From positions 4,789,501-4,853,500 of the forward strand of contig NZ_CP041387.1 in NCBI RefSeq assembly GCF_007005445.1: a stretch of DNA of 64,000 nt, written 5' to 3'. The notes below the pieces were generated by a model. The model saw only the letters and a list, made by a program, of their open reading frames with translations. It was not told where the DNA came from and made no database searches. Position numbers and translations under genes: made by a program. Positions 980 to 19,124 of the stretch are shown here, piece by piece. Within the stretch, counting starts at the first letter, position 1, and the number at the start of each line of letters is the position of its first letter. Source of the DNA: Rhodopseudomonas palustris (lineage in GTDB: Bacteria > Pseudomonadota > Alphaproteobacteria > Rhizobiales > Xanthobacteraceae).

Positions 980-2056
980 TTATGCAGCTTCGTCGGTCAC
1001 CGACTCGTCGTCGGAATCGCCGTCGACGTCGGAATCGGTCTCGGCCTCGCTCTCCGCTTCGGCCTTTGCGCCGCGCCGCGGGCTCTTGGCGAGCTGGCTC
1101 TCGACTTCCTTCACGGCTTCGGTCTCGGTGATGTGCTGCACCACCGCGATCTCGCGCGACAGACGGTCGAGTGCGGCTTCATAGAGCTGGCGCTCGCTGT
1201 AGGACTGTTCCGGCTGCGATTCAGAACGATACAGGTCGCGGACCACTTCGGCGATCGCGACGATGTCGCCCGAATTGATCTTCGCTTCGTATTCCTGCGC
1301 CCGGCGCGACCACATCGTCCGCTTGACGCGAGCCCGGCCCTTCAGCGTCTCCAGCGCCTTCTTCACCAGCGCCGGGTCGGACAGCTTGCGCATCCCGACA
1401 TTGCCGACCTTCGCGGTCGGCACGCGCAGCGTCATCTTGTCCTTGATGAAGTTGATGACGAACAGCTCAAGCTTGGCGCCCGCGATCTCCTGCTCCTCGA
1501 TCGCCAGGATCTGGCCGACGCCGTGCGCCGGATAGACTACGAACTCGTTGGCCTTGAAGCCCTGGCGCTGGGTCACGGCCTTCTTCGGCTCCTCGACCCG
1601 CGCCTGCACCGGGGCCGCCGGCTGCTTGACCTCGGGCTTGGCGGCCTTCACTTCAGCCTTCACCTCAGTCCGGGGTGCGACGGCAGCCTTGGCGGGCTTC
1701 GCCGCCGGCTTGGTTGCGGCGGCGGTCTTGGAGGCAGCCGGCTTGGCGGCAGTTTTCGCAGACTTGGTTGGCATTTCACTTCTTTTGGTTTTCGAGGACT
1801 TGAAGGCCGGAGCTTTGGAGGCCGAAGCCTTCGCAGCAGACCCCTTTGCGGGAGCGAGTTTGCTGGCGCTTGCTTTGCCGGCGCTCGCCTTGGTCTGGGT
1901 CTTGGAAACAGAAGCCTTTGCGGCGGTCGCTTTGGCGGCTGTCCGGGTGTCCTTGACAGGAGCCTTCGATCGGCTCTTTGTGGCTCCGCGGCTGGCCGCG
2001 GATGCACGCTTCGCACCCTTCGAAGAAACACTCGTTTTACGCGTTTTCTGTGACAC
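980..2056 (-). CDS. carD: CarD/CdnL-family transcription factor with long Lys/Ala-rich N-terminal tail
   Basis: Residues from about 165 on form a CarD domain: an RNA-polymerase-interacting Tudor-like part (FVVYPAHGVGQI) and a helical DNA-contacting part (MWSRRAQEYEAKINSGD). By family it binds the RNA polymerase beta subunit and stabilises the open complex at rRNA and other promoters. The preceding residues are a low-complexity Lys/Ala/Ser/Pro tail resembling histone H1 or AlgP-type proteins, and the C-terminus is acidic. Two starts are plausible: the ATG at 2056 (358 residues) and an internal ATG at 1774 (264 residues, MPTKSAKTAAKP), preceded by a purine-rich stretch. The CarD assignment is secure; the true N-terminus is not. 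Confidence 0.9.
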   Translation of the reverse strand: MSQKTRKTSVSSKGAKRASAASRGATKSRSKAPVKDTRTAAKATAAKASVSKTQTKASAGKASASKLAPAKGSAAKASASKAPAFKSSKTKRSEMPTKSAKTAAKPAASKTAAATKPAAKPAKAAVAPRTEVKAEVKAAKPEVKQPAAPVQARVEEPKKAVTQRQGFKANEFVVYPAHGVGQILAIEEQEIAGAKLELFVINFIKDKMTLRVPTAKVGNVGMRKLSDPALVKKALETLKGRARVKRTMWSRRAQEYEAKINSGDIVAIAEVVRDLYRSESQPEQSYSERQLYEAALDRLSREIAVVQHITETEAVKEVESQLAKSPRRGAKAEAESEAETDSDVDGDSDDESVTDEAA

Positions 2057-2143
2057 AGCCTGCGCGTGGAACCGCCACGCCCCTGTTCGTTGCTTCTGAC
2101 GGGGAACCCTTCCCGGCTACCCAAGCGGCAAGCCGGAGTTGAC

Positions 2144-2181
2144 GAATGTGCCAAATATAGCACATTCCCCGCAAAAATCAA
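2144..2181 (-). promoter_or_regulatory. carD promoter with inverted repeat around the -10 box
   Basis: On the minus strand there is a -35-like TTGATT (2176-2181), a 16-base spacer and a -10-like TATATT (2154-2159), about 90 bases upstream of the ATG at 2056. An 8-bp perfect inverted repeat, GAATGTGC at 2144-2151 and GCACATTC at 2160-2167, flanks the -10 box and could be an operator. Function is inferred from position. Confidence 0.6.
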
Positions 2182-2255
2182 TGATTTATGACGATTCCAC
2201 CCAATTCGGGGCGGCGCCCCGGGGTGCAACTCGTCAACAGGGTTAAGCTGGATGG

Positions 2256-2272
2256 GGCCGGCAGTGCCGGCC
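2256..2272 (-). terminator. GC hairpin downstream of fdxA
   Basis: A 7-bp perfect stem with a 3-base loop (ggccggc/gccggcc) lies 17 bases past the fdxA stop. There is no U-tract, so it is either a weak terminator or a 3'-end stabilising hairpin. Confidence 0.35.
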
Positions 2273-2288
2273 TCGCAAGACCTTCGGC

Positions 2289-2627
2289 TTAGTCGCCCGA
2301 GCCCGGCTCCGACGAGAAGTACTTGTCGAACTTGCCGGCCTGACCATCGAACTCCTTGGCGTCAGCCGGAGCGTCCTTCTTCTGGGTCAGGTTCGGCCAG
2401 GTCTTGGCGTGTTCGGCATTCAGCTCGAGCCACTTCTCGAGGCCCGGCTCGGTGTCCGGCTTGATCGCTTCCGCCGGGCATTCCGGCTCGCACACGCCGC
2501 AGTCGATGCATTCGTCCGGATGGATGACCAGCATGTTCTCGCCCTCGTAGAAACAATCCACGGGGCAGACTTCAACGCAGTCGGTGTATTTGCACTTGAT
2601 GCAGTTCTCAGTGACGACGTAAGTCAT
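2289..2627 (-). CDS. fdxA: Seven-iron ferredoxin FdxA
   Basis: A 112-residue ferredoxin starting [17 protein letters not shown]. The first cysteine set ([17 protein letters not shown]) and the second ([12 protein letters not shown]) are arranged as in FdxA proteins that carry one [3Fe-4S] and one [4Fe-4S] cluster, and the C-terminal extension with conserved Trp residues (EKWLELN, KTWPNL) is also typical. It is a soluble low-potential electron carrier; its partner cannot be told from sequence. The frame stays open well upstream, but the ATG at 2627 gives the family-length protein and has a GGAG about 10 bases ahead. It lies between an S4-domain gene and carD, all leftward. Confidence 0.95.
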
Positions 2628-2701
2628 CCCAACGCTCCGGAACGGTTCTAATTTTGAGTGTTTGCGTACCGCAGGAGCACCGCAGCCGCAAGTGAAGATG
2701 C

Positions 2702-2971
2702 CTATTCCCGTGGCATTCCGAGATCGGCATAAAGTCCAGTAACCGACTCGGCATCGCCGCGGCGCTCTGTGAATCCAACCACCTTCAGCACCCGCACGCC
2801 ACGATCCAGCGCAATCGTCAGCACGTCTCCGATCTTGACGCCGTGTCCGGGGGAAGTCTCGCGCACACCGTTGATGCGGACGTGGCCGCGTTCGACCAGC
2901 GCAGCAGCGTTGCTGCGCGCACGCACCACGCGGGCGTGCCACAGCCATTTGTCGAGACGCTGACGCTCCAA
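2702..2971 (-). CDS. S4-domain RNA-binding protein (Hsp15/HslR-like)
   Basis: A roughly 89-residue protein that is almost entirely an S4 RNA-binding domain: [20 protein letters not shown], then [21 protein letters not shown]. The family includes Hsp15, which binds stalled 50S subunits carrying nascent chains, so a ribosome-rescue or RNA-binding role is likely. The best start is TTG at 2971. No ATG lies in frame between it and the end of the helicase gene, and the frame continues upstream, so a few extra residues are possible. It follows the helicase gene by about 30 bases and is probably co-transcribed with it and with fdxA. Confidence 0.85.
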
Positions 2972-3000
2972 ACCCGAACCATCGGCTGTGCCGGCAGGCG

Positions 3001-6000
3001 TTAGTCCTTGCGGCCGGCGGTGAGTTGCTCCTTCAGCGCGGCGAGCTTGGCGAACGGCGAATTCGGATCCATCGGCCGGTCACGTTCGCGCGGGGCGCTG
3101 GAATGCACCTGCCGGTGCGAGCCGCCGCCCTGATTGTCGCGGCCGCCCTTCGGTCCGCCCTGATACTTGTCTTGGAACTTGTCGCGGCCCTTGAAGCGTT
3201 CGCGCGGCGGGCGACCCTCGCCGGACGCCTCGCGCTTGACGCCTTCGCCGTCGGGCCTGCGCTGGTCGCGGCGGAAATCGCCCTTGCCACGGCGGCCGCC
3301 GCGGTCGCCCTTGGCTTCGCCGGACTCGCTCTCGGTCGCGGTGGTCGCCGACCCATGCTGCGGGCGATTGCGATGACGGTTGCGGTCGTGGCGCGGCCGC
3401 TGGTCGTCGGAGCGTCCGCCCGGACGCCAAACCTCGATCAGGTCCGGCTCCGCTTTCGGGGAGGCTTCCGCATTCGCCGTGTCGGAGGTCGCTTCGGCGG
3501 CCTCGCCATCCGTCGCGGGTGTCTCGATCGCCGCATCGGCCGTGACGGCGGGCTGCTCGGATGCCTCAGTGGCGGATGACTCCGGTGCTGGCTCGGATGC
3601 CGCCGCCGCCGGCTCGTCTGCGGGCGCCGGCTCATCGACGCTCGGAGCGGCTTCGGCACTTTCGTCGGCCTCGGCCGCAGGTGCCGGCTCGAACGCGATC
3701 GCGCCGGCGAGGATCGCCTGATCCTCGGCGGTCATCTCGGTTGCGACGGCGGACTCGGTCGGTTCGGCGATGGCCGGCGTCGCGGCCTTGGGGGCGGGCG
3801 GCAGCGGCGGCCGCTTTTCCATGCGGTAGCCCAGCGCCCGCAGGATCGAAGCAAAGTCCTCGCCGGCCGAGCCGGTCAGCGAGGTCATCGCCTGGGTCAC
3901 CACGAAGCTGCGGCCGTCGAACGCGCCGGCCGGCTTCTCGCCGGGGGCGCCTTCGCGCCAGGCCAGAGCGGGCCGGATCAGGTCGGCCAGACGTTCCAGA
4001 ATGTCGACACGCACGGCGCGCTCGCCGCACAGCCGATAACCGAGCGTCCGATAGGCGTCACGGTCGAGCGCCTTGTCGGCCGGAAACGAGGTGCGACCGC
4101 TGCCGGCCAGATGCTGCGCGCTGGACAGAGCGGCCAGATCGACATTGTCCTGCTTCTGCGCCCACAGCAGCGACGCCAGTGCCCGCGCCGCCGGCTTCAG
4201 CAGCGACGGGAAGTAGATGTGATAGGCGCCGAACCGCACGCCGTATTTGCGCAAGGTGGCGCGCGACGGCTGGTCCAGATCCTTCATCTCGGCGGCGATC
4301 TTGGCACGTTCGATCACGCCGAGGCACTCGATGAGCTGGAATGCGATGCCGCGGGCGATGCCGCTGACGTCCTCCGCCTTGGCCAGCTCGAACAGCGGCC
4401 CGAGGATCTTCTCGACGTGGGTCTTGAGCCAAAGGTCGAGACGGGCCTGCACGGCCTCGCGCGGTGCGCCGGCGAGCCGCTCGTCGGCGATGATCCGCAG
4501 TCGCGGCCGCAGCACGTCGTCGGAGCCGACCAGCCGTGCCACCGCATCGCCGGTCCAGCGAATGGTCCCGTCGGATGTCAGGATGAACTGATCGTCCGGG
4601 GCGTTCGACAGCTTCTCGGCGCGCGCGTCGATTTCGCCGGCCAGCGCCTTTTGCGCCGTCGCCTGCAACGCCTTTGCATCCGAGCCGGCCTCGGCCGAAT
4701 CGGGCGCAAAGGTGAAGCCATCGAGCCGGCCGATCACGTGGCCCTCGACGATCACCTCACCAGTCTTGCCAATTTCCGTATTCAACATCGTGTTTTCCCG
4801 CAGGCGGCGCATCAATACACTGGTCCGGCGATCGACGAAACGTTCCGTGAGCCGTTCGTGCAACGCATCTGACAATTTATTTTCGACGTCGCGCGAGATG
4901 CCCTGCCAGTGTTCGGGGTCGGCAAGCCAATCCGGCCGGTTGGCGACGAAGGTCCAGGTGCGGATTTGCGCAATTCTCGCGGAAAGCGTGTCGATACCGC
5001 CGTCGGTGCGATCCGCCTGATCGACCTGGGCGGCGAACCAGCTATCTGGAATCCGCCCCTTTTGCATCAAAAACCGGTACAGCGTGATCACCAGCTCGGC
5101 ATGGGCAGCCGGTGCGATCTTACGATAGTCCGGGACTTGACAGACATCCCATAGCCGCTCGACCGCGGCTTTGCCCTGCGCGAATTCGCGCACCTCGCCG
5201 TCGCGGGCGACATGGTCGAGCACCCGCATGTCCTCGGCGATCGGCGCCCGGGTCAGCGCCTCGTGCCGCGGCGCCTCGGCCAGCGACACCTGCAGCGCGC
5301 CGAGCGAGGCGAAATCCAGCTCGGCGTTGCGCCATTGCAGCATCTTCACCGGCTCGAAGCTGTGGTTTTGCAGGGCGTTGACCAGCTCGGGCTCGAACGG
5401 CGCGCAGCGCCCGGTGGTGCCGAAAGTGCCGTCCCGGGTGGCGCGCCCCGCCCGCCCGGCGATCTGGCCGAATTCCGAAGGGGTGAGACGGCGAAACTGA
5501 TAGCCGTCGAACTTGCGATCGGAGGCGAAGGCGACGTGATCGACGTCGAGATTGAGTCCCATGCCGACCGCGTCGGTGGCGATCAGGTAATCGACGTCGC
5601 CGGACTGAAACATCGCCACCTGGGCGTTGCGGGTCCGCGGGCTGAGCGAGCCCAGCACGACCGCGGCGCCGCCGTGCTGGCGCTTGATCAACTCGGCGAT
5701 GGCGTAGACCTCGTCGGCCGAAAACGCCACGATCGCGGTGCGTCGCGGCTGCCGGGTCAGCTTGCGGTCGCCGGCATATTCGAGCTGCGACAGCCGCGGC
5801 CGGGTGACGATGCTGGCGCCGGGCAGCAGCCGCTCGATCATCGGCCGCATCGTCGCGGCACCGAGCAGAAGTGTCTCGTCCCGACCGCGCCGGCGCAGAA
5901 TCCGGTCGGTAAATACGTGGCCGCGTTCGAGGTCGGCGGCGATCTGGATCTCGTCGACCGCCAGAAACGACACGTCGAGGTCGCGCGGCATCGCTTCGAC

Positions 6001-8378: not shown

Positions 8379-11300
8379 ATGAAGCTGTCGACCCGGCTGA
8401 CCCTCGCCATGGTTGCGCTGGTCCTGGTGACCACCGCGGTCCTCGGATTTCTCAATTATCAGAACGTGGTCGATCTGGTGGTGCCGCGGGCATTGATGCG
8501 GCTTCACACCCATGCACAGCTCAACGCGCTGCTGATCGAGACCTCGCTCAGAAGCACCCACGCGGACGCCGTCGGGGCGCAATCGTCCGCGTCGTTGCGG
8601 GACCTGTTGACGGCGCGGCGCGACAGTCTCCGAACCACCGGTCAGGAACCGCCGGATTGGCGTAAGCGGATCGAGGATCGGTTCGTCGGCGAAATGATTG
8701 CCAAGCCGAATTGCGCGATTCTACGCGTGATCAGTCCGGACGACGGGGGCCGTGAGCTGGTTCGGGTCGACCGGCTCGGTCCTGGCGGCGGCATTCGGGC
8801 GGTGCCGCCGGACGAGCTGACCCGCCGCGGCGACCGCGCATACTTCAAGGAAGGCATGGCGTTACCGCCGAACCGCGCTTCGATGTCCAGGGTCGAACTC
8901 AACAAGACCGCGACCGGGCTCGAAACCCCGCATGTGCCGACGGTGCGGACCATGGCGCCGATCGACGCCGCTGACGGCACCCGCCTCGGTCTTCTGGTGG
9001 TGAACACCGATTTGCGCGCGTTGCTGAACCGGATCCGCGAGAGCGCCGACGGCAGCAATATCATCTATGTCGTCAACAGCGACGGCGACTACTTGCTGCA
9101 TCCCGACCGGTCGCGCGAGTTCGGCTTCGATCTCGGTCGGCGCAGCCGCATCCAGGACGACTTCCCGGGCCTGGCCGAGCGGCTGGTCGCCGGCGCCGAG
9201 CCGGCCCTGGTGACCGATCGCAATGGCGAACGGTTTGGAGCCGGCTGGGATTGGGCCCAGCTCCCGCAGGGCCCTCGCATCGCGGTTGTCGAACTCAGAC
9301 CCTATTCGTCGCTGACCTCGGTGAAGACGGCGGTTCGCAATTCCACCATCGTCGGCGGCACGGTGGCGGTTCTGGTCGCGATGCTGATGGCGATCCCGCT
9401 GGCACGGTCGCTCACCCGGCCGCTGGTCCGGATCACCAATTCGATCGAGGCTTTCGCCAGCAATGGCGTGCCGGTCGAGGTGAAGTCCGGCGGTGGTCAC
9501 GAAATCGACGTGCTGGCGGCCGCCTTCACCCGGATGGCATCCGAATCCCAGCGCAAGGCGGCGGCGCTCGCCCGAGAGGTCGAGGAGCGCAGCCGCATCG
9601 CCGATGTCCTGCAGAACACCATCGACAACATGGTCGATCCGGTGCTGGTCGCGGATGCCCGCGGCATGGTGATCCTGACCAATCCGGCCGCGCGCGAGAT
9701 CTTTGGACAGTTGTCCGGCGTGGGCGTCCTCAACACGACCCGTTCGTTCGATCGGTTCGATGCCGACGGCAATCCGATGCCGCAGGACCAGTCGCCGCTG
9801 CTACGGGCCTATCGCGGAGAAACTATCGTCAACTTCGAATTCTCCGTGCGGCCGAACGGCTCCGGGCTGAGCTCCCATCTGATCGCCAACGGGCGACCGC
9901 TGCGCAGCGAAACCGGCGAAATCCAGGGCGCCGTGATGGTGTATCACGACATCACCAAGACCAAGAAGGCCGAGGACGCCTTGCGCCGCAGCCAGCAGAT
10001 GGCGCGTGCGATCATCGACACCGCCCTCGACGCCTTCGTGCAGCTCGATGTGCAGGGGCGGATTACGGATTGGAGCCCGCATGCCGAGGCGCTGCTCGGC
10101 TGGAGCCGCGCGGAAGCGCTGGGCAAGGACTTGGGCGAACTGGTCCTGGCACCCGATCGGAGCAGCGAGATCAAGACCGGATATCGACGGTTCATCGACG
10201 CCATCGAGCACGATATGGGGGTCATCCACGGACACCGGATCGAGGTCGAGGCGCTGCGCCGTGACGGCTCGATGATCTCGCTGGAAGTGTCGATGGCGGC
10301 GCTGCCGGTCGAGGGACGGTTCGTCGTCAACGCGTTCATGCGCGACCTGACCGAGAAGATCGCGTTCGAGGAGCAGCTCCGGCAATCGCAGAAGATGGAG
10401 TCGATCGGCCAGTTGACCGGCGGCATTGCCCACGACTTCAACAACATGTTGACGGTGATCACCGGCACCATCGACATCATCAGCGACGGCGTCGCCGATC
10501 AGCCGCATCTGGCGGCGATCGCCAAGCTGATCAGCGAGGCCGCCGATCGTGGCTCCGAACTGACCCGGCTGCTGCTCGCCTTCGCCCGCAAGCAGCCGCT
10601 GCGGCCGGATGAAACCGACGTCAACGCGCTGCTCGCAGGATTGCAGAGCCTGCTGCGTCCGACGCTGGGCGAGCCGATCGAGGTCGAGACGATGCTCGCA
10701 CCTGATACCTGGCCGATCTATGTCGATCGCGGTCAGCTCGAATCGGCGCTGGTCAATCTCGCCGTCAACGCCCGCGACGCGATGCCAAAGGGCGGCAAGC
10801 TCACGATCGAGAGCTGCAACGTCGTGGTGGATTCCGACCTCGGCAAGCGCCTCGGTGATCTGGCGCCTGATGACTATGTGATGATCGCGATCGCCGATAC
10901 CGGGTCCGGCATTCCGGAGGCGATCCGCAGCAAGGTGTTCGATCCGTTCTTCACCACCAAGGAGGTCGGCAAGGGAACCGGCCTCGGCCTCAGCATGGTG
11001 TACGGCTTCATCAAGCAGTCCGGCGGACACATCACCCTGGACAGCGAGGAGGGGCAGGGCACGACGTTCCGCCTGTACCTGCCGCGCGCGCGCGCCGAGT
11101 CCGACATCGAGGCGGAGCCGGCGATCGAGCAGAGTGCTGTCGGCGGCACCGAGACCATTCTGGTGGTCGAAGACGACGCGATGGTGCGCAGCTACGTCAA
11201 CGCCCAGCTCAAGAGCCTGGGCTACACTACGCTGTCGGTCGGCAATGCCACCGCGGCACTCTCGATCGGCGAAAGCGACACCGTGTTCGATCTGCTGTTC

Positions 11301-11591
11301 ACCGACGTGGTGATGCCGGGGCCGATGAACGGCGTTCAGCTCGCTGCCGAAATGGCCAAGCTGCGTCCGGGGCTGAAGGTTCTCTACACCAGCGGCTATT
11401 CGGAGAATGCGCTGATTCACAACGACCGGATCGATTCCGACGTGCTGCTGCTGTCGAAGCCGTACCGGCGCAGCGATCTGGCGAGGATGATCCGCCGTGC
11501 GCTGGCGAACCACGAGGCCGAGCCGTCGCGGCCGCCGGTGGCTGCCGAACCGGCAATCGCCGGCAAGGTCGTCTCGGCGCGATCGGTTTAG
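8379..11591 (+). CDS. Hybrid sensor histidine kinase (periplasmic sensor, HAMP, two PAS, kinase, receiver)
   Basis: 1070 residues. A membrane segment near 7-27 and a second near 321-341 bound a periplasmic domain of about 290 residues, probably Cache-like. HAMP (RSLTRPLVRITNSIEAFA) follows, then PAS domains near 415-535 and 550-660. The HisKA site is GGIAHDFNNML with phosphoacceptor His685, and the ATPase has DTGSGIPEAI and GTGLGLSMVYG. The receiver domain is at about 925-1040 with phospho-Asp976 (LLFTDVVMPG). The ATG at 8379, with AGGGG before it, starts the first membrane helix. There is no neighbouring response regulator and no output domain, so the partner is elsewhere. The ligand is unknown. 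Confidence 0.93.
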   Translation: MKLSTRLTLAMVALVLVTTAVLGFLNYQNVVDLVVPRALMRLHTHAQLNALLIETSLRSTHADAVGAQSSASLRDLLTARRDSLRTTGQEPPDWRKRIEDRFVGEMIAKPNCAILRVISPDDGGRELVRVDRLGPGGGIRAVPPDELTRRGDRAYFKEGMALPPNRASMSRVELNKTATGLETPHVPTVRTMAPIDAADGTRLGLLVVNTDLRALLNRIRESADGSNIIYVVNSDGDYLLHPDRSREFGFDLGRRSRIQDDFPGLAERLVAGAEPALVTDRNGERFGAGWDWAQLPQGPRIAVVELRPYSSLTSVKTAVRNSTIVGGTVAVLVAMLMAIPLARSLTRPLVRITNSIEAFASNGVPVEVKSGGGHEIDVLAAAFTRMASESQRKAAALAREVEERSRIADVLQNTIDNMVDPVLVADARGMVILTNPAAREIFGQLSGVGVLNTTRSFDRFDADGNPMPQDQSPLLRAYRGETIVNFEFSVRPNGSGLSSHLIANGRPLRSETGEIQGAVMVYHDITKTKKAEDALRRSQQMARAIIDTALDAFVQLDVQGRITDWSPHAEALLGWSRAEALGKDLGELVLAPDRSSEIKTGYRRFIDAIEHDMGVIHGHRIEVEALRRDGSMISLEVSMAALPVEGRFVVNAFMRDLTEKIAFEEQLRQSQKMESIGQLTGGIAHDFNNMLTVITGTIDIISDGVADQPHLAAIAKLISEAADRGSELTRLLLAFARKQPLRPDETDVNALLAGLQSLLRPTLGEPIEVETMLAPDTWPIYVDRGQLESALVNLAVNARDAMPKGGKLTIESCNVVVDSDLGKRLGDLAPDDYVMIAIADTGSGIPEAIRSKVFDPFFTTKEVGKGTGLGLSMVYGFIKQSGGHITLDSEEGQGTTFRLYLPRARAESDIEAEPAIEQSAVGGTETILVVEDDAMVRSYVNAQLKSLGYTTLSVGNATAALSIGESDTVFDLLFTDVVMPGPMNGVQLAAEMAKLRPGLKVLYTSGYSENALIHNDRIDSDVLLLSKPYRRSDLARMIRRALANHEAEPSRPPVAAEPAIAGKVVSARSV

Positions 11592-11907: not shown

Positions 11908-13908
11908 ATGACGCAGGTGGTGTACGGGGTCTGGGACGGAGTTACCTACGACTCACGAGCCGACGAGGGTGGCGAGGCACGGGCCACGGACTACGCGTTG
12001 GCAAATTTCGATGAGTTCGACGACGGCAATGCGATCCGCGCCTTCATCGCCGACCGCGGGTTCTTCGTGTTCGACCCGACGGTGTCGCTGGTCGATGCAC
12101 TCTATCACTACCTAAAGACCGTCGCCGAGCAGTCCTGCGGCGCCTGCACCCCCTGCCGGGTCGGCACGGTGTTGGTGCGGGATGCGCTGGACCAGATGCG
12201 CCGGGGGATGGATGCCGCGCTGACGCTCGACGACATCGTGATGCTCGGCGAGCAGATCCGGCAGACTTCGCTGTGTGGGCTGGGCCAGACCTGCGCGGTC
12301 GCGCTGCTGGCGGCGCTGCGGGAGTTTCGGCCGCGTGTCGAACGGGAGCTGGGCTCGCACCGGCCGATCCCGGCTCAGCACGGCATGGCCTACGTCACCG
12401 CACCGTGCATTGAGGCGTGCCCCTCCAAGATCAACGTGCCGCGCTACATCGACTACATCCGTGACGGCAAGCCCGAGAGCTCGCTCGGCGTCCTGCTGCA
12501 GAAATACCCGATGGCGGCGACCTGCGGCCGGGTCTGCGTGCGCTATTGCGAGCAGGCGTGCCGGCGTAAATTCGTCGACGAGGCGGTCGGCATCAAGACG
12601 CTGAAGCGCTACGTCGCCGACCAGCAGAGCGGTCCGCACGCGCTGAAATTCACCCGCGACATGATCCGCAAGCCGCTCGCCGACGGCATGCGGGTGGCGG
12701 TGGTCGGCGCCGGCCCGGCGGGAATCTCCTGCGCCTATCACCTGCTGCTGCGCGGCTATCACGTCGACGTCTTCGACAAAGCCAGCCAGGCCGGCGGCAT
12801 GGCGCAGATCGGCATCCCGAGCTACCGGCTGCCCAAGGATACGCTGGCGCTGGAGACCGACATCATTGTCGACCTCGGCGGCCGGTTCCTGTTCGATCAG
12901 CGCCTCGGCCGCGACTTCTCGATCGACGATTTGTTCGCGCGCGGCTACCGCGCGGTGTTCCTCGGCCTCGGCTGTCAGCAGGGCGCCCGGCTCGGCGTTG
13001 CCGGCGAGGACAGTGCCTACGCCGGTTACTTCAGCGGCATCGATTTCCTGCTCAAGGTTCACGACCACGTCGACGGCATCGCGCCATTGGCGCTGAGCGG
13101 CGAAGTGGTGGTGGTCGGCGGCGGCAATGTCGCGATGGATTGCGTGCGGTCGGCGATCCGCCTCGGCGCCGACAAGGTCCACGTCGTCTATCGCCGCACC
13201 CTCGCCGACATGCCGGCCGACCCGGCCGAGATCGAGGCCGCCCGCGCTGAAGGCGTCGAGTTCCATGTCCTGAGCGCACCGGCCGAGATCGTCACCGAGC
13301 ACGGCAAGGTCACCGGCGTGGTGCTGACGAAGATGCAGGCGAGTGAGCCCGATGCAGGCGGGCGGCGCTCGGTGAAGCCGATCCCGGGCAGCGAGACGGC
13401 GATGCGATGCGACGTGATGATCGCCGCGATCGGCCAGCAGGTCGAGGACGGGCCGCTGATCGAGAGCGACGGCATCGCGTTCGACCGCTGGCGCTGCGTC
13501 GCGACCGACCGGGTGCTCGCCACCTCGCGGCCCGGCGTGTTCGCCGGCGGCGATTGCGTCACCGGTCCGTCGACGCTGGTCTATGCGATGGCCGCCGGGC
13601 TGAAGGCGGCGCGCAACATCGATGACTGGATCCAGCGCGGCTCGGTGCGGTTCTTCAAGCGCTCGCGGATGCGCAAGCTGATCGCCGACAACCATATGAT
13701 GGCCAACGAGATCGTGGCGGCCCCGGTGCGCAACGCCTATCGGGTGCACAATCCCGAAATCGATCCCGAGCTGCGCAAGCACATGTTCGGCGAGGTCGAG
13801 CAGACCATCGATGCCCGCGCCGCCTATGCGGAGACCCAGCGCTGCATGCGCTGTTATCGCGTCTATTCCGTCGTCACCAAGCATCCGATCCCGGAAGGAG
13901 CGGCTTGA
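11908..13908 (+). CDS. NuoF-tail/GltD-like iron-sulfur FAD oxidoreductase (hydrogenase partner)
   Basis: 666 residues. At about 70-155 is the NuoF C-terminal [4Fe-4S] module (SCGACTPCRVGT and a later Cys in SLCGLGQTC). The FMN/NADH-binding part of NuoF is missing. Next comes the GltD-type double cluster region (CIEACPSKINVP, CGRVCVRYCEQAC). An FAD Rossmann motif (VVGAGPAGISCAYHL) and an NAD(P)H Rossmann motif (VVVVGGGNVAMDCV) follow, and the C-terminus has CMRCYR. The layout recalls SfrB- or glutamate-synthase-small-subunit-type NADPH oxidoreductases. It lies 4 bases before hydA, so it probably moves electrons between NAD(P)H and the hydrogenase. Cofactor preference is an inference. The ATG at 11908 is chosen over an in-frame upstream start because the recognisable protein begins there. 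Confidence 0.85.
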   Translation: MTQVVYGVWDGVTYDSRADEGGEARATDYALANFDEFDDGNAIRAFIADRGFFVFDPTVSLVDALYHYLKTVAEQSCGACTPCRVGTVLVRDALDQMRRGMDAALTLDDIVMLGEQIRQTSLCGLGQTCAVALLAALREFRPRVERELGSHRPIPAQHGMAYVTAPCIEACPSKINVPRYIDYIRDGKPESSLGVLLQKYPMAATCGRVCVRYCEQACRRKFVDEAVGIKTLKRYVADQQSGPHALKFTRDMIRKPLADGMRVAVVGAGPAGISCAYHLLLRGYHVDVFDKASQAGGMAQIGIPSYRLPKDTLALETDIIVDLGGRFLFDQRLGRDFSIDDLFARGYRAVFLGLGCQQGARLGVAGEDSAYAGYFSGIDFLLKVHDHVDGIAPLALSGEVVVVGGGNVAMDCVRSAIRLGADKVHVVYRRTLADMPADPAEIEAARAEGVEFHVLSAPAEIVTEHGKVTGVVLTKMQASEPDAGGRRSVKPIPGSETAMRCDVMIAAIGQQVEDGPLIESDGIAFDRWRCVATDRVLATSRPGVFAGGDCVTGPSTLVYAMAAGLKAARNIDDWIQRGSVRFFKRSRMRKLIADNHMMANEIVAAPVRNAYRVHNPEIDPELRKHMFGEVEQTIDARAAYAETQRCMRCYRVYSVVTKHPIPEGAA

Positions 13909-13912
13909 AGCG

Positions 13913-15772
13913 ATGTGCACGTCCGATCAAGTCAGCCAGTCCGCCCGCGATCCCAACGAAGCGACGATCTCGCTCTCGATCAACGGCGTCGCCTGCGCCG
14001 GCTTCGCCAACGAGACCATCCTGTCCTGCGCACGGCGCTACGACGTCTACATCCCGACGCTGTGCGAACTGGAGGACATCGATCACACCCCCGGCGCCTG
14101 CCGGGTCTGCCTGGTCGAGATCCTGCAGGCCGGCAAGGACACGCCGCAGATCGTCACCGCCTGCAATACGCCGGTGCGCGACGGCATGGAGGTGCAGACC
14201 CGCTCGAAGAAGGCGCGCGACATGCAGCGCCTGCAGGTCGAGCTCTTGATGGCCGACCATCTGCAGGATTGCGCCACCTGCATCCGCCACGGCAGTTGCG
14301 AGCTGCAGGATCTGGCGCAGTTCGTCGGGCTGCAGCAGAACCGGTTCTTCGACCGCGAGCGGACCGAGTCGCGCCCGGTCGATCAAAGCTCGCCAGCGAT
14401 GGTGCGCGATATGCGGCGCTGCGTCCGCTGCCAGCGCTGCGTCGCGATCTGCCGCTATCACCAGAAGATCGACGCGCTGGCGATCGAAGGCAGCGGGCTG
14501 GAGCGGATGGTGGCGCTGCGCGACGCCGACGGCTACCCGAATTCGGTGTGCGTGTCCTGCGGCCAGTGCGTGCTGGTGTGCCCGACCGGTGCGCTCGGCG
14601 AGCGCGACGAGACCGACCGGGCGCTGGACTACATCTGTGATCCTAACGTCGTCACCGTGGTGCAGTTCGCGCCCGCCGTACGCGTGGCGTTCGGCGAAGA
14701 GTTCGGTCTGCCCGCCGGCACCAATGTCGAAGGCCAGATCATCGCCGCCTGCCGCAAGCTCGGCGTCGACGTCGTTCTCGACACCAACTTCGCCGCCGAC
14801 GTGGTGATCATGGAGGAGGGCGCGGAGCTGCTGGCGCGGTTGAAGCAGGGGCGGCGGCCGACCTTCACGTCGTGCTGCCCGGCCTGGATCAACTTCGCCG
14901 AGATCCATTATCCGGACGTGCTGCCGCTGCTGTCCTCGACCAAGTCACCGCAGCAGGTGCTGTCGACGATCGCCAAGAGCTATCTGCCCGAACAGCTCGG
15001 TGTGCCCGCCGAGCGCATCCGGGTGATCTCGATCATGCCGTGCATCGCCAAGAAGGACGAGGCGGTTCGGCCGCAGATGGTTCATGACGGGTGGCCCGAA
15101 ACCGACCTGGTGCTGACCACGCGCGAATTCGCCCGGCTGCTGCGGCGCGAGGGCATCGACCTGAAGGACCTGCCATCGTCGCAGTTCGATCGCCCGTTCC
15201 TCAGCGCCTATTCGGGTGCCGGTGCGATCTTCGGCACCACCGGCGGCGTGATGGAAGCGGCGGTACGGACCATCTACGCGCTGGTCAACGGCCGCGAGCT
15301 GGACCGGATCGAGCTGATGCAGCTCCGCGGCTTTGAAGGCCTGCGCGAGGCGAGTGTCGATCTCGGCGGCCCGGTCGGCGAGGTCAAGGTCGCGATGGTG
15401 CACGGCCTCGGAGATACCCGCCGGCTGGTGGAATCGGTGCTGAGCGGCGAGGCGAACTACGATTTCATCGAGGTGATGGCCTGCCCAGGCGGCTGCGTCG
15501 ACGGCGGCGGATCGCTGCGTTCGAAGAAGCAGTATCTGCCGCTCGCGCTGAAGCGGCGCGAAACCATCTACAATGTCGACCGCGCCGCCAAGGTCCGGCA
15601 GTCGCACAAAAATCCCCAGGTCCAGGCGCTCTATCGCGAACTGCTGCAGGCGCCGAATTCCGAGATCGCGCACCGGCTGCTGCACACTCACTATGCCTCG
15701 CGCAAGCGGGAGCTGCAGCACACCGTCAAGGAGATCTGGGACGATCTCACCATGAGCACGATCCTGTACTGA
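13913..15772 (+). CDS. hydA: [FeFe]-hydrogenase catalytic subunit
   Basis: 619 residues with the full modular layout of large monomeric [FeFe]-hydrogenases. An N-terminal [2Fe-2S] domain (PGACRVCLVEI) is followed by the His/Cys3 [4Fe-4S] motif (HLQDCATCIRHGSC) and two [4Fe-4S] sets (CVRCQRCVAIC, CVSCGQCVLVCP). The H-cluster motifs are all intact: L1 TSCCPAWI (Cys321, Cys322), L2 MPCIAKKDEA (Cys377) and L3 EVMACPGGCVDGGG (Cys524, Cys528). The Cys before the L1 ligand and the SSTKSPQQ segment used for proton transfer in clostridial CpI are present, so it looks catalytic rather than sensory. By family it interconverts protons and H2 in the cytoplasm. Activity needs HydE, HydF and HydG, none of which is in this window. 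Confidence 0.95.
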   Translation: MCTSDQVSQSARDPNEATISLSINGVACAGFANETILSCARRYDVYIPTLCELEDIDHTPGACRVCLVEILQAGKDTPQIVTACNTPVRDGMEVQTRSKKARDMQRLQVELLMADHLQDCATCIRHGSCELQDLAQFVGLQQNRFFDRERTESRPVDQSSPAMVRDMRRCVRCQRCVAICRYHQKIDALAIEGSGLERMVALRDADGYPNSVCVSCGQCVLVCPTGALGERDETDRALDYICDPNVVTVVQFAPAVRVAFGEEFGLPAGTNVEGQIIAACRKLGVDVVLDTNFAADVVIMEEGAELLARLKQGRRPTFTSCCPAWINFAEIHYPDVLPLLSSTKSPQQVLSTIAKSYLPEQLGVPAERIRVISIMPCIAKKDEAVRPQMVHDGWPETDLVLTTREFARLLRREGIDLKDLPSSQFDRPFLSAYSGAGAIFGTTGGVMEAAVRTIYALVNGRELDRIELMQLRGFEGLREASVDLGGPVGEVKVAMVHGLGDTRRLVESVLSGEANYDFIEVMACPGGCVDGGGSLRSKKQYLPLALKRRETIYNVDRAAKVRQSHKNPQVQALYRELLQAPNSEIAHRLLHTHYASRKRELQHTVKEIWDDLTMSTILY

Positions 15773-15784
15773 CGGGGGCTCGTG

Positions 15785-16777
15785 ATGACTTCGCCTCAGC
15801 ACCCGCTGGTCAATCGTCGCGAGGTCGTGTGCGGCCTGGCGGCGCTGCCGGCGCTGGACTTGACGCGGGCGTTCGCGGCCGAGCCGCTGACGCTGTGGGG
15901 GATTCCGGCGACGCCGTCGGCGCTGTTCGTCCGCGCGGTGACGTCGGAGCGGCTGCAACAGATCGCGCCCGGAACGCGCTTTCAGCTCTGGAAGAGCACC
16001 GACCAGATGCGCGCCGGCATCGCGTCCGGACAGTTCCGGCTGTTCGCGACCTCGACCTACGCGGCCGCCAATTTCTTCAATCGCGGCGCCGGGACGCGGA
16101 TGCTGAACGTCGTTACCTGGGGCGTGCTCTACGTGATGGCCCGCGATCTGGCGATCACCTCCGTGGCCGATCTGGCGGGCCGCAGCATACTGTTGTCGAA
16201 CAAGAACGAGGCGCCCGATCTGCTGTTCCGCATGGTGCTGCGCTGGGCCGGGCTCGATCCGGACCGCGACGTCCGCTGCGAATATGTCGGCTCGCCGGGC
16301 GAGGCGGTGCCGCTGTTTCTCGCCGGCCGCAGCGACGTCGCCGTGTTGCACGAGCCTGCCGCGACCACTGCGCTGCTCCGCGCCAGGCAGGACGGCAGGC
16401 CGGTGTATCGGGTGCTGGATATCGCCGAACTCTATGGTCGCCACACCGGGCGCGGGCCTCGGATTCCGCAAGTCGGCCTCGCGGTCAGCCCCGAGCTGTT
16501 GAACACTCAGCCCGAGGTCGTCGCCGCCGTGCAGGCCGCTTGCGTCGAAGCAAGTAACTGGATCGCCGCGCACCCCCGCGAGGCCGCAGAGCTGGCCGCG
16601 CCGGCGCTCGGCCTGTCCGCCGAAGTGATCGCGGCGTCGCTGCCGCATGTCCGCCTCGACGTCGTTCCGGCGCGACAGGCGCGTGACGACATCGAAGTGT
16701 ACTTCAAGAACCTGATGGAGCTTGATCCCGGCATCGTCGGCGGCCGGCTGCCGGACGCGGCGTTCTATGCGGGGTAG
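15785..16777 (+). CDS. ABC transporter substrate-binding protein, nitrate/sulfonate/taurine (NMT1-like) type
   Basis: 330 residues. The N-terminus has a twin-Arg-like signal (NRREVVCGLAALPALDL) ending near RAFAAEP, so it is exported, perhaps by Tat. The mature protein follows the SsuA/TauA/NrtA pattern: TLWGIPATPSALFVRAV, a middle SVADLAGRSILLSNKNE and the YVGSPGEAVPLFLAGRSDVA region. It starts 12 bases after hydA, with the next gene overlapping its end, so it belongs to the hydrogenase transcription unit. The ligand cannot be read from the sequence. The family binds sulfonates, nitrate, bicarbonate, pyrimidine precursors and aromatic acids. Confidence 0.85.
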   Translation: MTSPQHPLVNRREVVCGLAALPALDLTRAFAAEPLTLWGIPATPSALFVRAVTSERLQQIAPGTRFQLWKSTDQMRAGIASGQFRLFATSTYAAANFFNRGAGTRMLNVVTWGVLYVMARDLAITSVADLAGRSILLSNKNEAPDLLFRMVLRWAGLDPDRDVRCEYVGSPGEAVPLFLAGRSDVAVLHEPAATTALLRARQDGRPVYRVLDIAELYGRHTGRGPRIPQVGLAVSPELLNTQPEVVAAVQAACVEASNWIAAHPREAAELAAPALGLSAEVIAASLPHVRLDVVPARQARDDIEVYFKNLMELDPGIVGGRLPDAAFYAG

Positions 16778-17540
16778 CGCGCGGATCTCGTGGGCCTGGA
16801 GCCTGGTCGGCATCGTGCTGCTGCTTGCACTGTGGGAGGCAGGGCATCGCGCATATGGGCCGCTGATACTGCCCAGCCTCGGCGACACCGCAGCCACGCT
16901 GTGGCGGATGATCCGCGCCGGGCAGGTCGGGCCGGCGCTGCTCGAGACCGCCGGCAATGCCGGGGTCGGCTGGATCATCGGCGTGCTGATCGGCTCGTGT
17001 GCCGGGATGCTCGCGGGTCTGCGCGAGGAGGCGCAGCGTGCGCTGCAGCCGGTCGCGATCATCCTGCTCGGGGTGCCGGCGATCGCCTGGGTGGTGATGG
17101 CGCTGCTGTGGTTCGGTGGCCGCTGGGCGGTGGTGGTGACGGTCGCCGCCGCCACCGGTCCAATGCTGTTCGCCGCGGCGCTGGAGGGCGTGCGCAGTCT
17201 CGACGGCACGCTGGCCCGGATGGCGCAGGTGTACCAGGTGCCGCTGTCGGCGCGGTTGACCGAGGTGTATGGGCCGCAACTGCTGAGCCATCTGTTCCCC
17301 GCGCTGGTCACCACGCTGGCGATGTCCTGGAAGGTCGCGGTGATGGCCGAGCTGCTCGCCGGCGCCGGCGGGATAGGCGATGGTCTGGCCACCGCGCGCG
17401 CCCATGTCGACACCGCAGAGACCATGGCCTGGGTGGTGGTCGTGGTCGGCGTGCTGATCGTGGTCGATGCCAGCGTGCTGCAGCCGTTGCAACGCCGGCT
17501 GTGGCTATGGCGCGACGAGGAGCGGAGCGGTCGCCGATGA
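16767..17540 (+). CDS. ABC transporter permease, SsuC/TauC-like
   Basis: 257 residues with about six hydrophobic segments and the BPD_transp_1 fold. The cytoplasmic coupling loop reads QVYQVPLSARLTEVYGPQLL, and a conserved late segment is MSWKVAVMAELLAGAGGIGD, as in sulfonate/taurine permeases. The ATG at 16767 overlaps the end of the substrate-binding gene by 11 bases. It probably forms a homodimeric channel with the adjacent ATPase. It lies in the hydrogenase operon, its distinctive context. Confidence 0.88.
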   Translation: MRGSARISWAWSLVGIVLLLALWEAGHRAYGPLILPSLGDTAATLWRMIRAGQVGPALLETAGNAGVGWIIGVLIGSCAGMLAGLREEAQRALQPVAIILLGVPAIAWVVMALLWFGGRWAVVVTVAAATGPMLFAAALEGVRSLDGTLARMAQVYQVPLSARLTEVYGPQLLSHLFPALVTTLAMSWKVAVMAELLAGAGGIGDGLATARAHVDTAETMAWVVVVVGVLIVVDASVLQPLQRRLWLWRDEERSGRR

Positions 17541-18232
17541 GCGGGCCGCTGCTGCAGTTCCGCGGCGTGCAGTTCGGCTATCAGGCGCCGGTGCTGCGCG
17601 GCATTGATTTCGACGTCGAGGCAGGCTCGATCACCGCGGTGATGGGGCCGTCCGGAAGCGGCAAGAGCACGCTGCTGGCGCTCGCCGCCGGGCTCTTGAT
17701 GCCGGACGCCGGCGCGGTGCACCGCCGCAGCACGCGGCTCGGCATGGTGTTTCAGGATCCCGCGTTGCTGCCATGGCGCAACGCGCTCGACAACGTGGCG
17801 CTTCCGCTGATCGCGCTCGGCCTGCAGAAGCGCGAGCGCGGCGACCGCGCACGGGCGATGCTCGCGAATGTCGGCCTCTCCGGCGACGATGCCGGTAAGT
17901 ATCCGCGCCAGCTCTCCGGCGGGATGCGGCAGCGCGTGGCGCTGGCGCGGGCGCTGGTGGTCGAGCCGGATCTGCTCCTCTGCGATGAGCCGTTCAGCGC
18001 GCTCGATGCGCTGGTGCGAGCCGAGCTGTGGCGGATCCTGCGCGGCATCCATGCGCGCAGCGGCCTGACGATGCTGATCGTCACCCACGACGGCCCTGAG
18101 GCGATGCAATGCGATCGTCTCGCTATCCTGTCTGCGGGCCACATCGAGCAATTCGGCACACCGGCCGAGATCGCGCACCATCCCGTCAGCGACGTGGTGC
18201 GAACCTTCGTGGCCGCATCGACAGAGCGTTGA
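17537..18232 (+). CDS. ABC transporter ATP-binding protein, SsuB/TauB-like
   Basis: 231 residues. Walker A is GPSGSGKST, the Q-loop is VFQDPALLPWRN, the signature is [15 protein letters not shown], Walker B is LLLCDEPFSALDAL and the H-loop is IVTHDGPEAM. The sequence groups with nitrate/sulfonate/taurine importers. Its ATG overlaps the permease stop (ATGA), so the two are translationally coupled. It is the last gene of the five-gene unit and converges with a LysR gene 13 bases on. Confidence 0.92.
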   Translation: MSGPLLQFRGVQFGYQAPVLRGIDFDVEAGSITAVMGPSGSGKSTLLALAAGLLMPDAGAVHRRSTRLGMVFQDPALLPWRNALDNVALPLIALGLQKRERGDRARAMLANVGLSGDDAGKYPRQLSGGMRQRVALARALVVEPDLLLCDEPFSALDALVRAELWRILRGIHARSGLTMLIVTHDGPEAMQCDRLAILSAGHIEQFGTPAEIAHHPVSDVVRTFVAASTER

Positions 18233-18245
18233 CGCCGCCGCCGTC

Positions 18246-19124
18246 TCACTCGCGCGGCGGCGAGTGCGCGCCATTGGCGAGGAAGAACAGTTCGACCAGC
18301 CGCCCCTTCTTGCCGGCCAGCGCGAAGATGCACTCCGGCGATTCGGCGTCGAGCTCGGCGATTGGCACCTTGGCGATGCGGTCGACTCTGCTCGAGCCGT
18401 GCTCCCACATGAAGCCGACGCCGAGATGGTTGGCGACTGCCTCCAGCATGCCCTCGCGGGTGTTGACCACGATCGACGGGACCGGACGCAGGCCGGCAGT
18501 GCGGAATGCACGATCGACGGCGCGCTGGGTCGAGGAATCGCGGGTGCGGAACACCAGCGGATAGCGCATCAGTTCGGCGATCGTGACCTGCGGTTTCTTC
18601 TTCAGGGGATGGCTCGGATGGCACAGCGCCATGACGCGCTGCTCCAGGCAGATCTCGCGGCGGAAGCGGCGGTCGGCCGGCACGTCCGGCAGCACGCCGA
18701 TGTCGACGCGCTGATCGACCACCGCGGCGACGATCGCCGACCAGCTTCCGATTTCGATCGCGATCTGCACCTTGGGGTACATCTGCTTGAAGGTTGCGAT
18801 CAGCGCCATGCCGGGCATCGAGTTGCCGAGCCCGACGCGGAGTTCGCCGCCGGCCAGCTCCTCGCGCTGCGACAGGATCGATAGCGCGTCGGTCTCGATC
18901 GCCTGCATCCGGCTGGTGGCGCCGTAGAGCTGCCGGCACAGCGAGGTCGGAATCAGGTTGGCGCCGTGGCGCTCGAACAGCGCCACGCCGAATTCGCCTT
19001 CGAGTTCGCGCACCGATTGTGCCACCGCCGATTGCGTCACGCCGATCCGCCGCGCTGCGGCTGCAAAGCTGCCGGCATCGAACACGGCGTTGACGGCGCG
19101 CACCCGCGCCGAAGTCAGGGCCAT
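18246..19124 (-). CDS. LysR-family transcriptional regulator
   Basis: 292 residues. The N-terminal winged helix-turn-helix (FDAGSFAAAARRIGVTQSAV) is followed by a LysR substrate-binding domain (RVGLGNSMPGMALIATF, IGVLPDVPADRRF). It is transcribed away from the phosphodiester importer operon starting at 19252, with 127 bases between. The usual LysR layout therefore predicts control of that operon and of itself. It also converges with the hydrogenase operon but is less likely to regulate it. The inducer is unknown. Confidence 0.93.
   Translation of the reverse strand: MALTSARVRAVNAVFDAGSFAAAARRIGVTQSAVAQSVRELEGEFGVALFERHGANLIPTSLCRQLYGATSRMQAIETDALSILSQREELAGGELRVGLGNSMPGMALIATFKQMYPKVQIAIEIGSWSAIVAAVVDQRVDIGVLPDVPADRRFRREICLEQRVMALCHPSHPLKKKPQVTIAELMRYPLVFRTRDSSTQRAVDRAFRTAGLRPVPSIVVNTREGMLEAVANHLGVGFMWEHGSSRVDRIAKVPIAELDAESPECIFALAGKKGRLVELFFLANGAHSPPRE

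Follow-up and report, generated by a model that had tools for sequence, protein, structure and literature searches.

A two-subunit [FeFe]-hydrogenase with a conserved active site in an alphaproteobacterial clade lacking recognizable HydE, HydF and HydG, and the ABC importer linked to it

A 64,000-nucleotide stretch of the Rhodopseudomonas palustris genome (contig NZ_CP041387.1, positions 4,789,501 to 4,853,500), hereafter the window, carries hydA, the gene of an [FeFe]-hydrogenase, between a flavoprotein gene and the genes of an ATP-binding cassette (ABC) importer. The maturases HydE, HydF and HydG (together HydEFG) are regarded as obligatory for the H-cluster, yet in the clade to which this HydA belongs the catalytic residues are retained although none of the three was found in the genomes searched. 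One operon appears to encode a two-subunit hydrogenase linked to nicotinamide adenine dinucleotide phosphate, NADP(H), together with a dedicated importer. Judging from the sequences, the likeliest reading, at about even odds, is a retained hydrogenase whose diiron site would come from a source other than HydEFG. The enzyme genes and the H-cluster motifs are the following:

11908..13908, + strand: flavoprotein gene (666 amino acids; open reading frame, domain and cluster-cysteine evidence)
13913..15772, + strand: hydA, [FeFe]-hydrogenase HydA (619 amino acids; accessory Fe-S ligands and H-cluster motifs intact)
14867..14887, + strand: L1 motif TSCCPAW, HydA residues 319-325 (alignment; T, S, C, C, P and W invariant in 20/20 clade loci)
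15035..15061, + strand: L2 motif MPCIAKKDE, HydA residues 375-383 (alignment and clade check)
15470..15511, + strand: L3 motif EVMACPGGCVDGGG, HydA residues 520-533 (alignment and clade check)

HydA matches PF02906, PF02256, Fer2_4 and NADH-G_4Fe-4S_3. It scores above the cut-off of the group A [FeFe]-hydrogenase profile TIGR02512 (522.6 bits vs 405.95) and below that of NF040763 for the NADH-dependent group A6 (714.5 bits vs 765). It aligns over nearly its full length with CpI and with the HydA1 subunits of two bifurcating hydrogenases (8a6t and 7q4v), which are the closest solved sequences. The initial annotation had described intact L1, L2 and L3 motifs, the proton-transfer cysteine and the accessory Fe-S clusters, and all of these are borne out by the CpI/8a6t/7q4v alignment and the clade check. 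Counterparts of CpI C299, E279, E282, R286 and S319 are present (numbering via the CpI alignment); we take HydA C321 to be the proton-path residue C299, and C322 to be the ligand C300. AlphaFold 2 models were of middling quality, with a mean predicted local distance difference test score of 70.8 and, for the flavoprotein, 72.2.

The flavoprotein gene ends 4 bases before hydA, exactly as first annotated. Its product fuses the C-terminal [4Fe-4S] domain of NuoF (PF10589, residues 64-146) to a two-cluster Fer4_20 domain (164-240) and a GltD/NfnL-like reductase for NAD(P)H and flavin adenine dinucleotide (FAD) (PF14691 and PF07992, approximately residues 261-576). The domain profile search gave no match to the NuoF domain that binds flavin mononucleotide (FMN), and profile searches of the other operon genes found no NuoE. 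The cluster cysteines are conserved in the hydA loci compared, and a YRR motif, presumably the NADP(H) marker of the GltD/NfnL-type family, is invariant in 20/20 clade loci and in the 12/12 sister loci that have the gene. The annotation as a catalytic-type [FeFe]-hydrogenase with an NAD(P)H-linked partner is thus supported at the level of sequence. Electrons would pass between NADP(H), the FAD of the GltD-like domain and the two Fer4_20 clusters, and from there through the NuoF-type [4Fe-4S] docking domain to the HydA chain ([2Fe-2S], Cys3His cluster, two F clusters) and the H-cluster, where HydA would hold a working diiron subcluster. The reaction likely runs as H2 oxidation to NADPH, or as H2 release at low H2 pressure only, in keeping with the redox potentials that set the favoured direction of the H2/NADP(H) reaction.

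The source genome (5,042,906 bases, one contig, rated 100% complete) contains no HydE, HydF or HydG above the curated cut-offs in a profile search of the whole assembly. The first description, which reported none of them in the 64-kb window, was therefore an understatement. The best matches are 19 bits for HydE and 84 bits for HydF, the latter confined to the GTPase part, and HydG has no match at E<=0.001. Furthermore, the absence extends beyond this single genome. We drew 33 relative loci with six peptide patterns, a partial sample, as many more relatives exist, among them a wider HydA family at 66-71% identity with members in Rhodoplanes, Blastochloris, Rhodovastum and Roseiarcus. The 36 genome records searched for HydE and HydF represent 34 distinct genomes (G016 and G017 duplicate G006 and G011), of which 14 hold all three maturases above cut-off and the other 20 none. 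The maturase-less group consists of the genomes that carry 18 of the 20 clade loci, together with the congeners G004 and G005; the genomes of loci L033 and L058 are outside the count. Three of the 20 are single-contig and rated 100% complete, and many others are drafts. HydA is 73-100% identical to that of the window in the maturase-less set and 69-71% in the maturase-bearing set.

The phylogeny is a quick maximum-likelihood tree without bootstrap, built on 70 rows (34 loci, 18 of the 120 listed database proteins and 18 distant proteins). Twenty HydA loci, maturase-less or of untested maturase status, form one clade with six database proteins of unknown status (Shimodaira-Hasegawa-like approximate likelihood ratio test, 100). 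Rows from Pleomorphomonadaceae and Ancalomicrobiaceae, here called the sister clade, adjoin it with a joint support of 93. Members of the clade come from Rhodopseudomonas, Rhodovulum, Rhodobacter, Cohaesibacter, Rhodobium, Tropicimonas, Aliiruegeria and one metagenome-assembled genome (MAG), and this spread over orders suggests lateral transfer. Exactly one HydA was found in 19/20 maturase-less genomes and two in G026, an uncultured Tropicimonas genome without HydEFG above cut-off. The second, different HydA of G026 is full length (about 700 amino acids; locus L120, G026:C13:1-9000, 1499-3604, + strand) and lies beside genes that read as transposase-like.

Conservation of the active site is nearly complete. 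Among 28 H-cluster and proton-path positions, 27 are invariant in 20/20 loci, the exception being residue 437 (Gly in 18 loci, Ala in two). The invariant ones include the counterparts of C299, E279, E282, S319, K358, M497 and F417, which we take to be diiron-site or proton-transfer residues. When 21 of the positions were followed in 80 rows of at least 73% identity, a single change appeared, Met to Thr at 375 in one row; in this set, from which the partially covered P0063 and P0078 were excluded, locus and protein-database rows overlap and are not independent lineages, and the added rows were included irrespective of maturase status. Across 90 outgroup rows (72 closer, 18 distant), 68 H-domain sites are fixed, with one exception allowed per site; five of these sites show variation among the 80 rows, in 1-4 rows apiece. 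Three cysteines that had seemed specific to the clade, C28, C242 and C280, turned out not to be exclusive in a larger sequence set.

These residues bear directly on the most serious alternative, namely that a diiron site is never inserted into HydA, which would retain its Fe-S clusters, [4Fe-4S]H among them, and form with the flavoprotein a sensor or a complex for NADP(H)-linked electron transfer. We regard such an apo-enzyme as possible, though on the doubtful side. It would fit the lack of HydEFG above cut-off in all 20 genomes, and the Bfu family is described in PMC9304861 as a HydA homologue that lost the H-cluster. The Hyp machinery was also rejected as a universal Fe-CO/CN donor: HypD is present in 15/20 clade genomes and was not found in G011, G022, G027, G041 and G043 (of these, G011 is a draft with a completeness rating of 100%, and no rating is stated for the other four), so that the [NiFe] route is unlikely to be the general donor. 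However, if the diiron cluster were never inserted, residues without another known role would be expected to drift, and the invariance of diiron-site and proton-path residues in a clade without detected maturases therefore argues against a dead enzyme. Nar-like proteins, by contrast, are described without the L1-L3 motifs in PMC6085437. The initial suggestion that the enzyme is not matured thus survives in part: it may still lack its diiron site, while its being dead is what the conserved residues speak against.

If HydA instead carries a working diiron site, the cell would have to acquire it independently of HydEFG, whether through a synthesis pathway not yet recognised or by taking up a precursor. 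A candidate for the latter lies directly downstream of hydA:

15785..16777, + strand: Tat-type (twin-arginine translocation) periplasmic substrate-binding protein of the PhnD/NMT1/SsuA superfamily, 12 bases 3' of hydA
16767..17540, + strand: ABC permease (BPD_transp_1), overlapping the end of the binding-protein gene
17537..18232, + strand: ABC ATPase, overlapping the end of the permease gene
18246..19124, - strand: LysR regulator, convergent, among the 34 loci present only in the three Rhodopseudomonas ones

Because of this spacing (a 12-base gap, then overlaps), the five genes from 11908 to 18232 look like one operon; the initial annotation makes no mention of the importer. The importer goes with this hydrogenase. 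By tblastn, binding protein and permease adjoin the hydrogenase operon in 20/20 clade loci and the ATPase in 19/20; in the exception, Rhodovulum euryhalinum, the nearest ATPase match lies 6 kb off, is 40% identical and is perhaps unrelated. Placement follows three arrangements: downstream, divergent upstream and co-directional upstream. No other neighbouring gene family is common to more than five of the 20 loci. In the sister clade, tblastn found the importer in 9/14 loci; three of the five loci without it are short or cut contigs, and two are long (Oryzibacter and one Ancalomicrobiaceae MAG). The first 8 kb of the Cohaesibacter celericrescens locus hold two tandem sets of the importer gene families 5' of the hydrogenase operon.

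The binding protein is 60-74% identical to that of the window in the other clade genera. All 29 of the 29 found carry a twin arginine, which we assume to be a Tat export signal. Residue His189 is fixed in 20/20 clade loci and is Pro in 9/9 sister loci. The closest profiles are those of the PhnD/NMT1/SsuA group, with scores above the gathering cut-offs of PF12974 (40.3 vs 27), PF13379 (38.7 vs 24.7) and PF09084 (28.1 vs 20.5), and far below that of the SsuA sulfonate-binding model TIGR01728 (46.1 vs 163.5). A protein database search scored 140 matches, 120 of them listed, with 77 top clusters at 58-94% identity. Among the matches listed, these are followed by 13 clusters including the Pleomorphomonas type, a few at 35-43%, and then matches at about 31% and lower. 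For HydA clusters of at least 73% identity on contigs of at least 9 kb, the longest contig also carries one of the 77 in 24 of 39 cases; for those at 66-71% it does so in none of 34. The comparison of longest contigs undercounts, as the importer goes undetected in the 66-71% group, yet tblastn detects it in 9/14 sister loci. The binding-protein family thus appears small and largely tied to this hydrogenase.

One way to read this linkage is that the Tat-exported binding protein and the importer take up an H-cluster building block released by other microbes, and that such uptake replaces synthesis by HydEFG. The idea draws on the importer at 20/20 loci, the small binding-protein family, the lack of any other family at more than five loci and the retained catalytic site, and we nevertheless consider it unlikely. 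The imported block would be either a precursor containing diiron or iron-CO/CN, or the dithiolate component. In a weaker form, the H-cluster may be synthesized endogenously and independently of HydEFG.

Several points weigh against a working hydrogenase matured without HydEFG. To our knowledge, HydEFG is the sole established biosynthetic route to the [2Fe] subcluster, and we know of no H2 activity for this operon. The invariance of the active site could reflect the needs of the fold as well as catalysis. The sister clade and more distant HydA proteins add two further objections.

All 14 sister genomes hold HydE, HydF and HydG, at 271-546 bits in the same searches. A second HydA, at 305-314 bits, is present in nine of them. 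For example, Pleomorphomonas diazotrophica has its second HydA in what reads as a NuoE-NuoF-HydA-like operon, so that HydEFG there has another client, and the sister clade's maturases often do. A listing of NuoE, NuoF, two HydA and HydEFG for Pleomorphomonas oryzae in PMC4967309 agrees with this pattern. The other five genomes lack a strong second HydA: the MAGs G036, G039 and G046 have this HydA type only, in G030 (Oryzibacter) the second match is weak, at 89 bits, and G042 has a fragment at a contig edge. In these five, HydEFG may therefore serve the HydA type discussed here, and they speak against a full decoupling from HydEFG. The HydE-HydF-ammonia-lyase-HydG cluster has no HydA inside in 5/5 loci read, with the HydE gene of L112 on a separate contig. 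The ammonia-lyase-like gene, assigned by reading, encodes about 460-480 amino acids and lies between hydF and hydG in all five clusters (L110-L114). According to its title, PMC11736057 deals with ammonia-lyases in the formation of the dithiomethylamine ligand.

In a class-wide sample of 385 genomes, distant HydA proteins (40-45% identical) occur in 18 other genomes. In this set the maturase search covered HydG alone. HydG is above cut-off in nine of the 18, and in a further genome it is divided between two contigs; it is absent in the remaining eight (G084, G096, G135, G136, G199, G212, G229 and G247), six of which are at least 95% complete. A regular-expression check of the HydA proteins of these eight shows L1 and L3 intact in 8/8 and L2 in 7/8; in G136, the aligned region of hydA contains an in-frame TAA. 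Neighbourhoods were read at four of the eight loci, with two HydABC-type-like operons and no importer match at any. HydA without HydG is therefore not tied to this operon or importer, which weakens a special role of the importer and strengthens the general puzzle. One such locus, L106 (G229:C1:1896000-1915000, 9382-11454, - strand), encodes a solitary 690-amino-acid [FeFe]-hydrogenase with intact L1-L3. Its 3.7-Mb alphaproteobacterial genome is rated 100% complete and has no HydG match, and neither flavoprotein nor importer matches lie beside hydA.

Could the maturases simply have been missed, being very diverged, hidden in masked sequence or carried by a replicon outside the assemblies? Drafts make up many of the 20 genomes, plasmids can be missing from records, and a few clade genomes do give matches below the cut-off (HydE, 19-44 bits, in G000, G004, G021, G023 and G027; HydG, 24-28 bits, in G021, G023 and G027). 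However, the same models score the sister clade's maturases clearly above cut-off, and HydG has no match in any of 16 Rhodopseudomonas genomes. The weak HydE/HydG-like matches of Cohaesibacter were rejected, as they look like CofG/CofH beside CofD/CofC-like genes (read in one genome, G023). HydF matches outside the sister clade were rejected too: among the rows listed they cover the GTPase part only, reaching no further than position 190 of the 392 in the profile, and since they are present in every genome searched, we take them as other GTPases. A BATS-domain search, which caught HydG in 3/3 controls and did not catch HydE, returned exactly one gene (open frame of 363-477 amino acids) in each of 11 Rhodopseudomonas genomes, five with and six without hydA, presumably BioB, and no match in the 15 other clade genomes. 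Among plasmids, 34 records matched HydG and 348 matched HydA, all below 60% identity. For this assembly, the profile and BATS searches refute the earlier proposal that the maturases lie elsewhere in the genome, and for the clade we find an oversight quite improbable.

A decaying relic of a transferred operon is the least probable explanation: its patchiness (full-length hydA in 5/16 genomes of the genus Rhodopseudomonas) and its spread across orders would suit it, but both enzyme genes are full length in 20/20 loci, the cluster cysteines are kept, and selection is purifying across genera. The ratio of nonsynonymous to synonymous substitution rates (dN/dS) in the clade is 0.157 for the H-domain and 0.217 for the Fe-S domain, compared with 0.177 and 0.165 in the maturase-bearing sister clade (Nei-Gojobori medians, dS<2; 170 and 169 of 190 clade pairs, 91/91 sister pairs). 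Among three Rhodopseudomonas species it is about 0.07-0.08. The H-domain is thus under purifying selection in the clade, no weaker than where maturases are present.

Around the operon, a hybrid sensor histidine kinase (window 8382-11591, + strand; HK sensor domain, HAMP, PAS, HisKA, HATPase and receiver) lies directly 5' in the window and is not a common neighbour in most other hydA loci. A search for FNR-like and sigma-54 sites 5' of the flavoprotein gene found no exact FNR consensus at 32 loci, and the few looser matches were not common to them.

The clade poses a choice between another route to an iron-CO/CN cofactor and a fully conserved hydrogenase fold doing non-H2 chemistry. What has been dismissed as "probably inactive" becomes directly testable, as the clade includes genetically tractable purple phototrophs, and the linked importer is a concrete candidate gene set for testing the cofactor source. 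A maturase-independent hydrogenase, if true, would matter for bio-hydrogen engineering.

Among known systems, group A2 of HydDB ("glutamate synthase-linked, putative, undetermined role") resembles the window in having a GltD-type NAD(P)H flavoprotein gene beside a group A HydA, and differs in that its rule, as printed in PMC5037454, calls for a downstream GltD-type protein and excludes NuoF. In the window, the gene of the GltD-type protein precedes hydA and includes a C-terminal part of NuoF, and the gene that follows hydA encodes the binding protein. Group A6 hydrogenases have NuoE/NuoF-type FMN partner subunits. The HydABC enzymes of this group (8a6t, 7q4v) share the HydA domain order, and the NuoF-type [4Fe-4S] domain is the probable docking piece; unlike them, the window operon has no NuoE and no FMN-binding NuoF match, scores below the A6 cut-off and lies in a genome without HydEFG above cut-off. 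The GltD/NfnL-like domain also recalls NfnAB and GltD-bearing formate dehydrogenase-like complexes (9n5u, 9bov, 8oh5), whose names indicate ferredoxin:NADP or formate dehydrogenase chemistry instead of HydA, and whose second flavoprotein subunit is missing from the operon. The binding protein resembles those of NitT/TauT (SsuA/PhnD/NMT1) importers in its Pfam scores, and differs in falling short of the SsuA model and in its largely hydrogenase-tied family.

HydA without maturases also occurs in eukaryotes, with other HydA types. Giardia, too, has a HydA and is not known to have the maturases, and we know of no GltD partner or importer for the HydA of Giardia or Entamoeba. For Entamoeba invadens, HydE, HydF and HydG are listed as absent in Table 1 of PMC4967309. 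The maturases are termed essential in PMC7460606, which also discusses some HydA activity after heterologous production without them. In the open-licence literature, a search that left most subscription papers outside, we found no description of this HydA clade, its conservation or its importer. A close parallel is Rhodospirillum rubrum, likewise an alphaproteobacterium with an [FeFe]-hydrogenase and reportedly no HydEFG: PMC4967309, citing Hug 2010, reports its HydA without maturases, and places maturases in R. rubrum relatives and Pleomorphomonas. A maturase-less HydA was therefore already known in one alphaproteobacterium; added here are its retention across a clade and the importer linked to it.

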